Positions 12,040 through 44,866 of a stretch of 64,000 nt of DNA are shown here, piece after piece. The stretch comes from Emticicia sp. BO119 (GTDB taxonomy: Bacteria > Bacteroidota > Bacteroidia > Cytophagales > Spirosomataceae): the NCBI RefSeq assembly GCF_013912375.1, contig NZ_JACETV010000004.1, positions 434,001-498,000 of the forward strand, given 5' to 3'. The number at the start of each line of letters is the position of its first letter. Positions within the stretch are counted from its first letter, which is position 1. A program made the translations under genes and the position numbers. A model generated the notes under the pieces. That model saw only the letters and a list, made by a program, of their open reading frames with translations, did not search any database and was not told where the DNA came from.

Positions 12040-13462
12040 ATATTTCGCTTGCCATTTCAATGGCTTTCCTAAGAGCTGCCAATTTTAAATGTATCTCTTT
12101 CATTTCTAATTCTATATCTGACTTTGCCACAATACCCATACCTGCCTGATAGAAAAGCGTATTGTTTTTACTTAAGAAAGTACGGATAGCAATGGCATGA
12201 TTGAAATTGCCTTTGAAATCCATGAAACCAATAGCACCTCCGTAGATACTCCGGTTGGTTGGCTCGAATCGGTTAATAATGGTCATGGCATTGTGCTTAG
12301 GTGCGCCTGAGAGCGTACCTGCCGGAAAGGTATCTGCAACCAACTGCAAAGGATTAGTACCTTTGTGCATTTTTCCGGTTACTTTTGAAACCAGATGGAT
12401 TACGTGACTATAGAATTGTACCTCTTTAAAAATATCAACTTTTACTGAGTCTGAACTTCTGGATAAGTCATTCCGGGCTAAATCAACCAGCATCACGTGT
12501 TCTGCTGATTCTTTAGGATCGGCGTGTAGCTGGCGGGCTAATTCGGCATCGCTTTCGTCGTCACCGGTACGTCTGAAAGTACCAGCAATCGGATGAATTT
12601 CTGCCTGCCCATCTTTAATATAAATCTGCTTTTCAGGCGAACTGCCAAAAATATGGTAATCACCACCATCAAAATAGAATAAGTAAGGAGAAGGATTGAT
12701 AGAGCGTAAGGCCCGGTAAACATTAAAATCATCGCCCTCGAATTTTCTTGAAAAACGTCTGGAAGGAACTATCTGGAATACATCACCGCGTAAACAATGG
12801 CCAATACATTTTTGGATGATTTCTCGCATATCGTCATCGTTAATATTAGTCAATTCTTCGCTATCAGCCTTGAATCTTGAAGTGGTTACTTTAGGGTTTT
12901 TGACAAAAAGCTCCAGTTTTTCCAGGCCATCTTTGTCTGGTTGAGGTTCTTGGCCTTCAGGCGTATAGGTATGCTCAAAAATGTATAATTCGTCTTTAAA
13001 ATGGTTGATAGCAATTACATATCGGTAAACACGGTAGAGGATTTGCGGAATGGTGGTTTCAGCACTTTTTTCCTGAATCTCTATGTCTTCAAAATATTCT
13101 ACAGAATCATAAGTAATATGCCCGAACAACCCATTCGTAATAAAAGAAAACTCACTTTTAGGCATCTCAAATTTAGCTGCAAAATCCTGTAAAACGCCTA
13201 CTGCCTCTTTACGATTGGCTAAAGCGAACTGGTTCTTGGTGCCGTCCGGGAATTTCTGGGTAACAACATCGTTGTCTAATTGAAAACTGGCTACTTCGTC
13301 GCAGGCAATATAGCTGAAACTATTGTGCATAGCGTGGTAATCGGCACTTTCGAGAATAACCGAATGGGGGTATTGACTACGGATTCTTTGAAAAATTCCG
13401 ACCGGAGTAAGCATATCGGCCAATAAACGTTTATATCGGGTTGTTATACCAAACTTTTGCAT
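12038..13462 (-). CDS. trpE: Anthranilate synthase component I
   Basis: Chorismate-using subunit making anthranilate with TrpG. The 474-aa protein has the N-terminal feedback-site motif VILESAD (L37-E38-S39) that binds tryptophan in this family, so allosteric inhibition is expected. The chorismate-binding domain carries FQIVPSRRF, SPYLFYFDGGDYHIFGSSPE, HPIAGTFRRTG, MLVDLARND, FPAGTLSGAPK, and YGGAIGFMDF followed by AIRTF. It is the first intact gene of the operon. Its ATG lies 5 bases after the stop that the broken upstream gene would use if its frame were restored, showing how tightly these two were packed. Confidence 0.97.
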   Translation of the reverse strand: MQKFGITTRYKRLLADMLTPVGIFQRIRSQYPHSVILESADYHAMHNSFSYIACDEVASFQLDNDVVTQKFPDGTKNQFALANRKEAVGVLQDFAAKFEMPKSEFSFITNGLFGHITYDSVEYFEDIEIQEKSAETTIPQILYRVYRYVIAINHFKDELYIFEHTYTPEGQEPQPDKDGLEKLELFVKNPKVTTSRFKADSEELTNINDDDMREIIQKCIGHCLRGDVFQIVPSRRFSRKFEGDDFNVYRALRSINPSPYLFYFDGGDYHIFGSSPEKQIYIKDGQAEIHPIAGTFRRTGDDESDAELARQLHADPKESAEHVMLVDLARNDLSRSSDSVKVDIFKEVQFYSHVIHLVSKVTGKMHKGTNPLQLVADTFPAGTLSGAPKHNAMTIINRFEPTNRSIYGGAIGFMDFKGNFNHAIAIRTFLSKNNTLFYQAGMGIVAKSDIELEMKEIHLKLAALRKAIEMASEI

Positions 13463-13467
13463 TTCTA

Positions 13468-13879
13468 TCAGAGGTTTGTACTAATATTTTTATTAATCAA
13501 TTTCAGTGTTCGAATAAATTCTGCTTGTCGTTCCGGTGAAATAATCACAGAATCATAATTTATCATAATAAATCTCAATTCTATCTCTTACTGATAAAGC
13601 CGGAGAACTGATTGGATTAGCTGTTTTTTTTATTTTTCTTATCTTTTTTATCTCAATTGTTTCATTAAACACGAATCCGCATACAATTTTCAAAGTATTT
13701 CCCTCAATCTGGTAATAGGTTCTGAATAAGAAACTCAGAATCAAGACTTTCACTACCATAAGCACTCCCACCATTATCCAGATCTTTTCAAGGGCTGTCA
13801 TTACCACCAATACTATAAGAAAACATAGAAGGGGGGCAAAAAGCCAGTAACTTATTTTTGAATGGAATCTTTGATGCAT
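13468..13879 (-). pseudogene. Small PH-like membrane protein gene broken by a one-base frameshift
   Basis: The reading frame from the ATG at 13879 gives two hydrophobic segments (SYWLFAPLLCFLIVLVVM and a second) and a bacterial PH-like beta domain (YYQIEGNTLKIVCG...VRDRIEIYYD), then stops at 13553. Starting at 13560, a shift of one base opens NYDSVIISPERQAEFIRTLK, which continues to a TGA at 13468-13470. The combined sequence reads IEIYY-D-NYDSVIISP, the usual end of this family (IEI.Y..YDSV.ISP...FI..L). One extra A in the A-run at 13559-13561 explains everything. The restored gene (about 136 aa) would end 5 bp before trpE. It may be a true pseudogene or a sequencing error. A GTG at 13900 is a less likely start because it lies inside the attenuator hairpin. 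Confidence 0.82.
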
Positions 13880-13884
13880 AGCAC

Positions 13885-13920
13885 AAAAAAAGCGGCTCAC
13901 AGGATGAACTGTAAGCCGCT
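13885..13920 (-). terminator. Attenuator terminator of the trp operon
   Basis: On the minus strand, AGCGGCTTACAG pairs with CTGTGAGCCGCT (11 of 12 pairs plus a G-U) around a 6-base loop and is followed at once by a run of seven T. This is a textbook intrinsic terminator placed between the promoter and the first structural gene, 5 bases before the ATG at 13879. It is expected to form when tryptophan-charged tRNA is plentiful. Confidence 0.9.
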
Positions 13921-14000
13921 GAATATATTTTGATTACTCAATACATAGCTATGCTGTTCATCCTTTGCCGGAAGAACGCCACCACCAGATGTTAGCTATG
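13901..14000 (-). promoter_or_regulatory. trp leader antiterminator and alternative pairings
   Basis: Two competing helices are visible in the leader RNA. First, 13956-13964 and 13901-13909 are complementary over 9 bp; this pairing would destroy the terminator stem, so it is the antiterminator. Second, 13993-14000 (just upstream of the Trp codons) pairs with 13944-13951 over 8 bp, which would favour the terminator by sequestering the antiterminator strand. The TGA of the leader peptide (13958-13960) lies inside the antiterminator strand, so a ribosome finishing the peptide blocks it, while one stalled at the Trp codons leaves it free. A conserved RNA called Bacteroid-trp has been described upstream of trp genes in this phylum; membership was not tested. 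Confidence 0.82.
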
Positions 14001-14017
14001 ATATTTCGTCGATTCAT
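13958..14017 (-). CDS. trpL: Trp operon leader peptide (19 aa, three tandem Trp)
   Basis: An ATG at 14017 opens a 19-codon frame, MNRRNIIANIWWWRSSGKG, ending in TGA at 13958. Three consecutive UGG codons are very unlikely by chance in AT-rich DNA. With a promoter upstream and an attenuator hairpin downstream, they identify a leader peptide whose translation senses charged tRNA-Trp. There is no clear Shine-Dalgarno, as usual in this phylum. The peptide itself needs no function. Confidence 0.9.
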   Translation of the reverse strand: MNRRNIIANIWWWRSSGKG

Positions 14018-14040
14018 TGTCTGTGTTGAAATTGTTGATA

Positions 14041-14070
14041 CAAAAGTATTGCGTAAATTTTTAAAACAAA
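14041..14070 (-). promoter_or_regulatory. Promoter of the trp operon
   Basis: On the minus strand, TTTG (14070-14067) is followed after 18 bases by TACTTTTG (14048-14041), matching the Bacteroidota consensus TTG / TAnnTTTG. Transcription would begin near 14035, about 18 bases before the leader peptide ATG. Confidence 0.75.
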
Positions 14071-14172
14071 ATTTTTTTAAGAATTTCTGAATATTTTTTT
14101 TATTATCTGGTAATAGCTAAGGTTTTTTACTGTTCTGGTTGTAAAACCAGGTATTTGCTATAGCCAGTATTT

Positions 14173-15321
14173 TCAAGGGGTATAGTCTATGGGTAAATCC
14201 TCTGCTACTAATTCCCAACTCCAATAGCCCTGGTAATGAATGCCCTCGGCATCAAAATATTGTCCGTCACTTTCAACGGTAACATTAGGTTTGAGTAGTT
14301 TTATGGTAGATACTTGCGGTGCAGTCTTATAAACATCATTAGCTTTTTTACGACTTCTGAAATAGGTATAAGGCTCTGCTTCGTTCACATAGGTTATCTC
14401 AAGTAAATCATCAAATTTTAGTAGCGGATGACCTCTTGTCGAAAGCGTACTATCAATAATCTCTTTGTATGTAAGGGTTTGTTGAGGGAGATTGCTCTTA
14501 TTAAAAAATTTTGTGGTAATATAAACGGTAGAATCGCCGGGTAGTGCTACTAATAAAGTGTCCTTACGAGGAACATAGCGTTTAACAATTTTCTTCAATA
14601 AAAAACCTTCTTCAAATAACTGTCTTTGATACAAGGAACGCATAAAGTGCATAATCGAGCCATAATAGGCTTTATGTCTGTTCTCTACCCATCTTTTTTC
14701 TTCCTTCTCATTATTTGGAATCAAGCTCTCATATACTACATGACCACTGTAAAAAATCCGGTGTTTTTCTTTGTTCAAAGAATACTCGTCTAACTGAAAT
14801 TTCAATTTATAGCCTAAGCCTCTGTTTTCAATAATAACTGGCTCCTGCGCCCTTGCAGTGAATTTCTCAGGCGCGTTCTCAAAATACAACACTTCCGGGT
14901 TAACCAATTTACATTGAATAGCATTTTCGCTTTGCCCAATAAAATTCTTAGAAAAAAAATCTACGTTATCCTGCCAATAAAGGTCCTTCTTACGGTGTGC
15001 TTTGATAGTAACAGCATCTAAGGCATTGTTACCAGGGACTAAATTAATGCGATACGATTTAGCAATTTCTGCCTGAATCGATAACACCAGTGTTTCAAAA
15101 CCTATATAAGAAACTACCAGATTGAATTTTCCTGGAGGTACATTTTTAAGCGAAAAAGTACCGTTTGAGTTTGTTTGAGTGCCCTTAGTCGAATTAGCCA
15201 GAAACACATTTGCGCCTGGGAGAGGTGTCTGGTCTTGATTGTTAATAATAATGCCTTTTATTTCAAACTGCCCGTATCCGAAGAAAGGGTAAAATAACAA
15301 TATGATTAAAATCTTTTTCAT
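14173..15321 (-). CDS. Exported protein with carboxypeptidase-like regulatory domain
   Basis: A 382-aa protein with a signal peptide (FFGYGQ at the cleavage zone) and an N-terminal CarboxypepD_reg-like beta sandwich at about residues 20-105 (IKGIIINNQDQTPLPGANVFLANSTKG, GTFSLKNVPPG, VSYIGFETL). The remaining 275 residues do not show a domain I recognise; they contain no TonB-receptor barrel signature, so this is not a SusC. It is last in a three-gene minus-strand operon (oxidoreductase, lipoprotein, this gene), 9 bp after the lipoprotein gene. Function unknown; surface or periplasmic. Confidence 0.8.
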   Translation of the reverse strand: MKKILIILLFYPFFGYGQFEIKGIIINNQDQTPLPGANVFLANSTKGTQTNSNGTFSLKNVPPGKFNLVVSYIGFETLVLSIQAEIAKSYRINLVPGNNALDAVTIKAHRKKDLYWQDNVDFFSKNFIGQSENAIQCKLVNPEVLYFENAPEKFTARAQEPVIIENRGLGYKLKFQLDEYSLNKEKHRIFYSGHVVYESLIPNNEKEEKRWVENRHKAYYGSIMHFMRSLYQRQLFEEGFLLKKIVKRYVPRKDTLLVALPGDSTVYITTKFFNKSNLPQQTLTYKEIIDSTLSTRGHPLLKFDDLLEITYVNEAEPYTYFRSRKKANDVYKTAPQVSTIKLLKPNVTVESDGQYFDAEGIHYQGYWSWELVAEDLPIDYTP

Positions 15322-43830: not shown

Positions 43831-44299
43831 AATTAAGGTCTTTTATTATTTCCATAACAAAGGTACTACCACCCATTGACAACAGTATGTCAGTAATGTT
43901 TCAGTTTTTTTTAGCCTTCCCGAATTTTATTCTGTATCTTTTTTTTAGTACATACTTTACTGTTTTTTCTGCTTTTGTATAAGCAATTTATAATTTCTTC
44001 AAAGTCTTATGCCATTATCAGTCCGGGATAAACGGGTCTGCCTCGAAACTCTTCCTGTAATCTTTAAAATAGGACAACTAAAATAAAAGACTCCATCTAT
44101 AGCCTCTATAAGGTTATTATAGCCTTTTATACACTTTTAATGAGTGAATGCTTCAATCTATCCCTGAAATCGGGTTTCTATCCCGGAAATTTTACTGGTC
44201 TGTATCTAATAAGTAGGTTAGCTGTATCAATAAAGCAGGAAGCCGAAAATGCTGTTTTAGAGTAGGCAAAAATCACGTACCCTTATAAAAAATAAAAAA
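43831..44299. other. Long gene-free region before the crystallin-like gene
   Basis: 469 bp with no credible open frame. It contains only weak inverted repeats (for example around 44108-44130, TATAAGG...CCTTTTATA, and 44160-44200, CCCTGAAATCGGG with CCCGGAAAT). No promoter of the phylum type was identified with confidence. Confidence 0.4.
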
Positions 44300-44866
44300 A
44301 TGAAAACAAAAGTAGCATTATCTTTCATGGCCTTAGTATTTGTTGGTATAACAAATCTGAAGGCTCAGATAACCGTTTATAAATCAGCCAATTTTGGAGG
44401 AGAGAGCCTGAATGTTTCAGGTAATTGGTCGGCAGTTGGCACACCCTGGAATGATAGAACGATGTCTATCAAAATACCTGCCGGGTATAAAGTAACTATT
44501 TATGAACATGTTAATGGAGGAAAACCAGCCGGTAACAGCAAAGTATTATACTCAGATTGGAAGGGAGATGCCACGTTTGGGGGTAGAATAAGTTATATCT
44601 CGGTTGAGCCAAATATGATTGGTCTCTATAAATCAACTAATTTTACAGGCGAAAAACTTGATATAGCCGGTAATTGGTCTGCTGCAAGCAATATGGCGTG
44701 GAACGATAAAATTAACTCTATCAAAGTACCCGCCGGTTATAAAATTGTTATCTACGAAAATGGCCCTAATAATGGCAAAAGCCTTGAATTAACTTCAGAC
44801 TGGGTTGCAGATTCTAACTGGAAGAATAAAATAAGCAACATCAATATATTATCTAAACCCCAATAA
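44300..44866 (+). CDS. Secreted beta/gamma-crystallin-like protein
   Basis: A 188-aa protein with a signal peptide (ITNLKAQ) and two internal repeats of about 80 residues. Each repeat contains Y-K-S-x-N-F-x-G-E, a GNWSA turn, WND(R/K)xxSI, P-A-G-Y-K and IYE, the pattern of bacterial beta/gamma-crystallin domains. The calcium motif (N/D-N/D-x-x-S/T-S) appears as NDRTMS and NDKINS, each off by one residue, so calcium binding may be weak. Such proteins are found as extracellular structural or inhibitor domains. The gene is isolated between long gene-free regions. Confidence 0.8.
   Translation: MKTKVALSFMALVFVGITNLKAQITVYKSANFGGESLNVSGNWSAVGTPWNDRTMSIKIPAGYKVTIYEHVNGGKPAGNSKVLYSDWKGDATFGGRISYISVEPNMIGLYKSTNFTGEKLDIAGNWSAASNMAWNDKINSIKVPAGYKIVIYENGPNNGKSLELTSDWVADSNWKNKISNINILSKPQ

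Follow-up and report, generated by a model that had tools for sequence, protein, structure and literature searches.

The leader preceding the tryptophan biosynthesis genes of Emticicia sp. BO119 very probably controls the trp operon by ribosome-mediated transcription attenuation. The switch is real and strongly conserved and belongs to a known kind, and it most likely allows the bacterium to turn on its tryptophan-making genes only when tryptophan is scarce. The leader resides on the minus strand of the window, by which we mean the whole 64,000-nucleotide stretch of DNA that was analysed. All of the elements named in the first-pass annotation of this DNA (promoter, leader peptide, three Trp codons, helices, and a terminator with seven T nucleotides) were located there, as follows:

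14071-14067, minus strand: TTTTG, candidate −33 promoter element, separated from the −7 element by 18 nt (direct reading and script)
14048-14041, minus strand: TACTTTTG, −7 element of the Bacteroidetes type, TAnnTTTG (script)
14048-13885, minus strand: whole attenuator, ahead of the trpEGDCFB-Dabb-trpA cluster
14017-13958, minus strand: leader peptide MNRRNIIANIWWWRSSGKG, 19 amino acids, ATG at 14017, stop TGA at 13960-13958 (direct reading)
14000-13993, minus strand: 5ˊ strand of the 1:2 helix (8 bp), CATAGCTA
13987-13979, minus strand: three tandem Trp codons, TGGTGGTGG (direct reading)
13964-13956, minus strand: 5ˊ strand of the antiterminator (9 bp), AGGATGAAC, which includes the UGA stop
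13951-13944, minus strand: 3ˊ strand of the 1:2 helix, TAGCTATG
13920-13885, minus strand: intrinsic terminator, with a 12-bp stem at 13920-13891, a loop of 6 nt, and a run of seven T nucleotides at 13891-13885
13909-13901, minus strand: 3ˊ strand of the antiterminator, GTTCATCCT, in the terminator loop and stem

Structurally, the 8-bp 1:2 helix and the 9-bp antiterminator are both fully complementary in the window. Because the 3ˊ strand of the antiterminator overlaps the stem and loop of the terminator, these two helices are mutually exclusive, sharing the bases at 13909-13901. The predicted fold of the leader as a whole has a z-score of −4.5, and none of 200 shuffled sequences folds equally well. 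The −7 element conforms to the Bacteroidetes-type consensus, TAnnTTTG. Of 81 sequences (the window and 80 relatives), 73 carry this motif somewhere in the 110 nt that precede the leader ATG, compared to 6.0 expected from mononucleotide shuffles, and TTTG at the position of the −33 element is found in all 11 sequences from the genus. These elements constitute a putative promoter for the window leader.

The genes downstream of the leader, identified by Pfam, establish that the operon is indeed trp, as had been proposed from the sequence:

13879-13553, minus strand: bPH_4 (PF06713) gene, 108 amino acids, frame broken near the 3ˊ end
13462-12038, minus strand: trpE
11960-11394, minus strand: trpG (Pfam GATase)
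11392-10385, minus strand: trpD
10354-9566, minus strand: trpC
9457-8819, minus strand: trpF
8788-7580, minus strand: trpB (Pfam PALP; trpB assigned from its position in the cluster)
7422-7042, minus strand: Dabb-domain gene, between trpB and trpA within the trp cluster
6999-6178, minus strand: trpA

The intergenic gaps along this series, from bPH_4 to trpA, range from 1 to 157 nt. The earlier statement that only 5 bases separate the T-run from the first structural gene holds for the bPH_4 gene (ATG at 13879), but not for trpE, whose start is at 13462. A bPH_4 gene is located between the terminator and trpE in four of the 11 genomes of the genus (the window and loci L010-L012). In the latter three it forms an unbroken ORF of 136 amino acids, whereas in the window only 108 amino acids are open and the tail lies in another frame, which is an apparent break. 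Only a short distance separates the bPH_4 ATG from the terminator in the window, L010, and L011, compared to 38 nt in L012. The remaining seven genomes have no bPH_4 gene between leader and trpE, although one of them (G102) carries a homologue that is 45% identical on a separate contig.

To evaluate conservation, regions upstream of trpE were collected from 80 relatives, picked by hand from the 147 other genomes of the family with a trpE match. These represent 32 of the 35 genera with such a match, the three left out being g10, g18, and g26. The conserved Trp leader peptides that the first-pass annotation proposed to look for are present throughout: a short ORF with an ATG, GTG, or TTG start and containing WW or WWW lies ahead of trpE in all 80 relatives. 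When the window is included, the longest Trp run is three residues in 63 of the 81 sequences and two in the other 18. When the search is confined to ATG-initiated ORFs no more than 600 nt upstream of trpE, WW peptides are found in 80 of 81 sequences, compared to a mean of 1.2 over ten rounds of shuffling. Such peptides were almost absent from the control regions: none occurred in 76 sequences when the interval 890-1490 nt upstream was examined, and the opposite strand had them in 2 of 81. The Trp codons are retained in the relatives whereas the remaining peptide sequence varies.

The position of the stop codon within the antiterminator strand had been regarded as a distinguishing layout of this leader. 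Instead, it is the most common arrangement in the family: of the 81 sequences, 44 have the stop codon within the core strand of the antiterminator, 15 have it ahead of this strand, and 22 have it beyond. Within the genus, it is inside the strand in only four of 11 sequences and just before it in the other seven. In addition, the distance from the end of the −7-like element to the leader ATG is 4 nt in 22 of the 81 sequences (L020-L032, L034, L043, L044, L046-L049, L057, and L064), including all 10 loci of g23 and all six of g31. Transcripts from these loci may thus begin at or near the leader start codon, an arrangement of sequence elements that suggests leaderless translation of the peptide.

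Transfer RNA genes are located close to the leader in some relatives. In eight of the 80 (L078, L079, L081, L083, and L086-L089), the leader peptide is immediately preceded by a tRNA-Pro (CGG) gene, which is possibly co-transcribed with it. In genome G065, a tRNA-Trp (CCA) gene is found between the attenuator terminator and trpE (L061:273-346), such that a tRNA-Trp gene may itself be located downstream of a switch responsive to tRNA-Trp charging. No sequence similar to this gene was detected at E ≤ 1e-6 elsewhere in G065 or in nine other genomes searched.

Compensatory changes, whose presence in relatives had been suggested as a check, are evident in the terminator and in the core of the antiterminator. 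The family alignment comprises 81 sequences, 79 of them distinct. A strict terminator scan missed six of these (L036-L039, L057, and L089), whose hairpins were chosen by eye and are included in the alignment and pair tables. In the terminator, 96.4% of alignment cells are paired and 10 of the 12 pairs have changed on both sides, and pairing drops to 22.3-55.6% if the partners are slid by 1-3 columns. For the antiterminator as drawn, 74.6% of cells are paired. This value rises to 90.9% for a core of eight pairs, six of which have changed on both sides, and is only 31.2% family-wide for the three outer pairs. Sliding the antiterminator partners by 1-3 columns reduces pairing to 29.9-46.7%. Both the covariation score and the number of both-side changes for the antiterminator exceed those of all 500 shuffles, whereas the number of further pair types that it shows does not surpass that of the shuffles (20 versus 19.0; 184 of 500). 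Pairing of UGA with UCA (columns 67-69 with 140-142) is retained across most of the alignment.

Within the genus, no compensatory change was observed in the antiterminator, and one of its A-U pairs is lost in the clade of four that includes the window. In a shuffle test of 75 of the 81 sequences, the antiterminator has a z-score of −2.8 in the window and weak values in several others (e.g. +0.6 in L019 and −0.3 in L017). For this reason, the case for the antiterminator rests on covariation. The 1:2 helix has 97.7% of cells paired and two compensated pairs in the genus alignment, but only 54.7% of cells paired family-wide as aligned. A small hairpin after the Trp codons is partly supported, with 66.1% of cells paired across the family as aligned.

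The leader peptide carries tandem codons for the amino acid that the operon produces, and conservation of this peptide together with mutually exclusive, compensated helices supports the original proposal of a trp attenuator. Presumably, control by tryptophan would operate as follows. When charged tRNA-Trp is ample, the WWW codons would be translated quickly and the ribosome would reach the UGA in the antiterminator strand. By covering this strand, the ribosome would permit formation of the terminator, and transcription would end before bPH_4-trpE. When tryptophan is short, a ribosome stalled on the WWW codons would prevent the 1:2 helix from forming, and likewise the small hairpin located after these codons, thereby freeing AGGAUGAAC for pairing with GUUCAUCCU, such that the terminator does not form and the operon is transcribed. 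If the leader is not translated, the 1:2 helix and the terminator would be expected to form together, a state equivalent to superattenuation.

Constrained folding with a ribosome-sized block gave outcomes that agree with classical attenuation, although they are only suggestive. All 12 pairs of the terminator formed when the RNA was free or the block was placed at the stop codon, and all nine pairs of the antiterminator formed when the first Trp codon was in the P site. Shifting the block one Trp codon further restored the terminator, and thus the simulated switch depends on the footprint that is assumed.

We weighed three other explanations for these features. Given that an intrinsic terminator is present, it might merely end transcription arriving from upstream, with the WW-containing ORF and the helices being coincidental. 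This is exceedingly unlikely, because the terminator is preceded by a leader with a promoter motif, WW peptides far exceed shuffled expectation (80 of 81 versus 1.2), and the core pairs of the antiterminator covary. The strong structure of the leader RNA might also be expected of an element sensed by RNA or protein, such as a riboswitch, a TRAP-like element, or a T-box, that controls the operon while the peptide is incidental. However, none of the six Rfam matches up to E 10 in the region (13300-14300) is a riboswitch or T-box, the sole match above its cut-off in the window (DUF805b) lies elsewhere, and it is the Trp codons that are retained while the remaining peptide varies. We consider such an element very unlikely.

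Finally, the window, L010, and L011 have the bPH_4 ATG very close to the terminator (in the window, 5 nt beyond the T-run), as might be anticipated if the leader governs translation of bPH_4 rather than transcription of trp. However, the leader is retained without an intervening bPH_4 gene in seven of 11 genomes of the genus and in other genera, the hairpin carries a T-run, and the bPH_4 gene of the window is frameshifted. The proposal is therefore scarcely credible, and attenuation of trp transcription remains the favoured explanation.

To determine how far this architecture extends, we used a covariance model (R1) built from 56 of the 70 loci outside the genus of the window. Loci L036-L039, L041, L042, L064, L068, and L073-L078 were left out as odd or gappy, and the training set includes some loci that match the Rfam family RF01692 (e.g. 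L063). With R1, the site in the window scores 90 bits (E 1.8e-17, R1 E-values being rough), whereas no other match anywhere in the genome exceeds 26.9 bits. At E ≤ 0.01, R1 matches 62 of 98 genomes of the order, seven of which belong to the family of the window, such that 55 of 91 lie outside this family. At the same threshold it matches 60 of 148 genomes across the phylum, including that of the window, compared to 15 of 148 for RF01692. R1 also recovers all ten of the RF01692 loci above cut-off that were fetched (46.8-66 bits). These ten loci (L102-L111) derive from another family of the class, and all are positioned before trpE with WWW leaders.

Among the best-scoring R1 matches, a WWW leader followed by trpE was present at every one of the 30 loci checked (L102-L111 and L122-L141, representing 21 distinct sites), while some of the weaker matches will be due to chance. 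The checked loci include a WWW leader before trpE in at least six genomes that have no RF01692 match (G156, G198, G210, G213, G225, and G260), which indicates that RF01692 probably catches only part of the class. R1 matches in several families suggest that these leaders may constitute one old class across the phylum. In two flavobacterial-type alignments inspected by eye, CGUGA is likewise able to pair with UCACG.

These results bring us to a broader proposal whose chances we regard as evenly balanced. The trp leaders of Bacteroidota would form one old, phylum-wide class of attenuators, much of it missed by the current Rfam model, and the switch in this class would turn on a UGA-UCA pairing core that frequently coincides with the stop codon of the leader itself. 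In the genus of the window, an unrelated gene, bPH_4, would have been inserted between the switch and trpE and thereby placed under tryptophan control. What is new here is how far the class reaches past the Rfam model, together with the presence of an inserted gene downstream of the switch. The bPH_4 insertion provides a small natural experiment in the capture of a gene behind an amino-acid sensor.

The closest known family is RF01692 (Bacteroid-trp, 'Bacteroidete tryptophan peptide leader RNA'), which likewise has a Trp-codon leader upstream of trpE. In Table 1 of one published survey, Bacteroid-trp is entered as an RNA that is cis-regulatory, is not a switch, and occurs in Bacteroidetes (PMC2864571). 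The window leader is found upstream of trpE in a member of the Bacteroidota and has a tandem-Trp leader ORF, as do members of this family. However, the scan with the Bacteroid-trp model that the first-pass annotation had recommended gave no match in the window, either at the gathering score (49 bits) or up to E 10 in 13300-14300, and so the window leader is not a member by Rfam's own test. Matches are nevertheless obtained for leaders that occupy the equivalent position in relatives from its family. Comparing RF01692 and trpE positions by hand, we found a match on the trpE leader at E ≤ 10 in 19 of 41 genomes of the family (19 of the 40 matches listed), a threshold that is loose because four of 14 control genomes also match; only one of the 41 genomes exceeds the cut-off. 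Of the 11 matches with E < 0.1, ten are on the trpE leader and the eleventh (G009) is in a genome with a split trpE. The RF01692 model begins ahead of the leader ATG and extends as far as the 5ˊ arm of the terminator, and its printed structure contains neither the terminator hairpin nor the antiterminator pairing, unlike the window leader.

The trpB ncRNA motif (RF04312) gives a weak alignment over the whole leader at 23.1 bits, compared to a cut-off of 59. Elsewhere in the window, the only Rfam match above its cut-off is a DUF805b RNA at 44233-44268 (42.2 bits; cut-off 35.6), which is located upstream of an ORF at 44300-44866.

No experimental work on a leader of this type in Bacteroidota came up in a literature search of limited coverage. 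The comparative data, with both competing helices covarying, provide strong support for trp leader-peptide attenuation outside Proteobacteria. Relative to the proteobacterial Trp_leader (RF00513), which scores only 16.8 bits in the window against a cut-off of 41, the window leader appears to differ in having its stop codon within the antiterminator strand, a position unlike that in E. coli. The two nevertheless share the same logic, which consists of tandem Trp codons, alternative helices, and a terminator.
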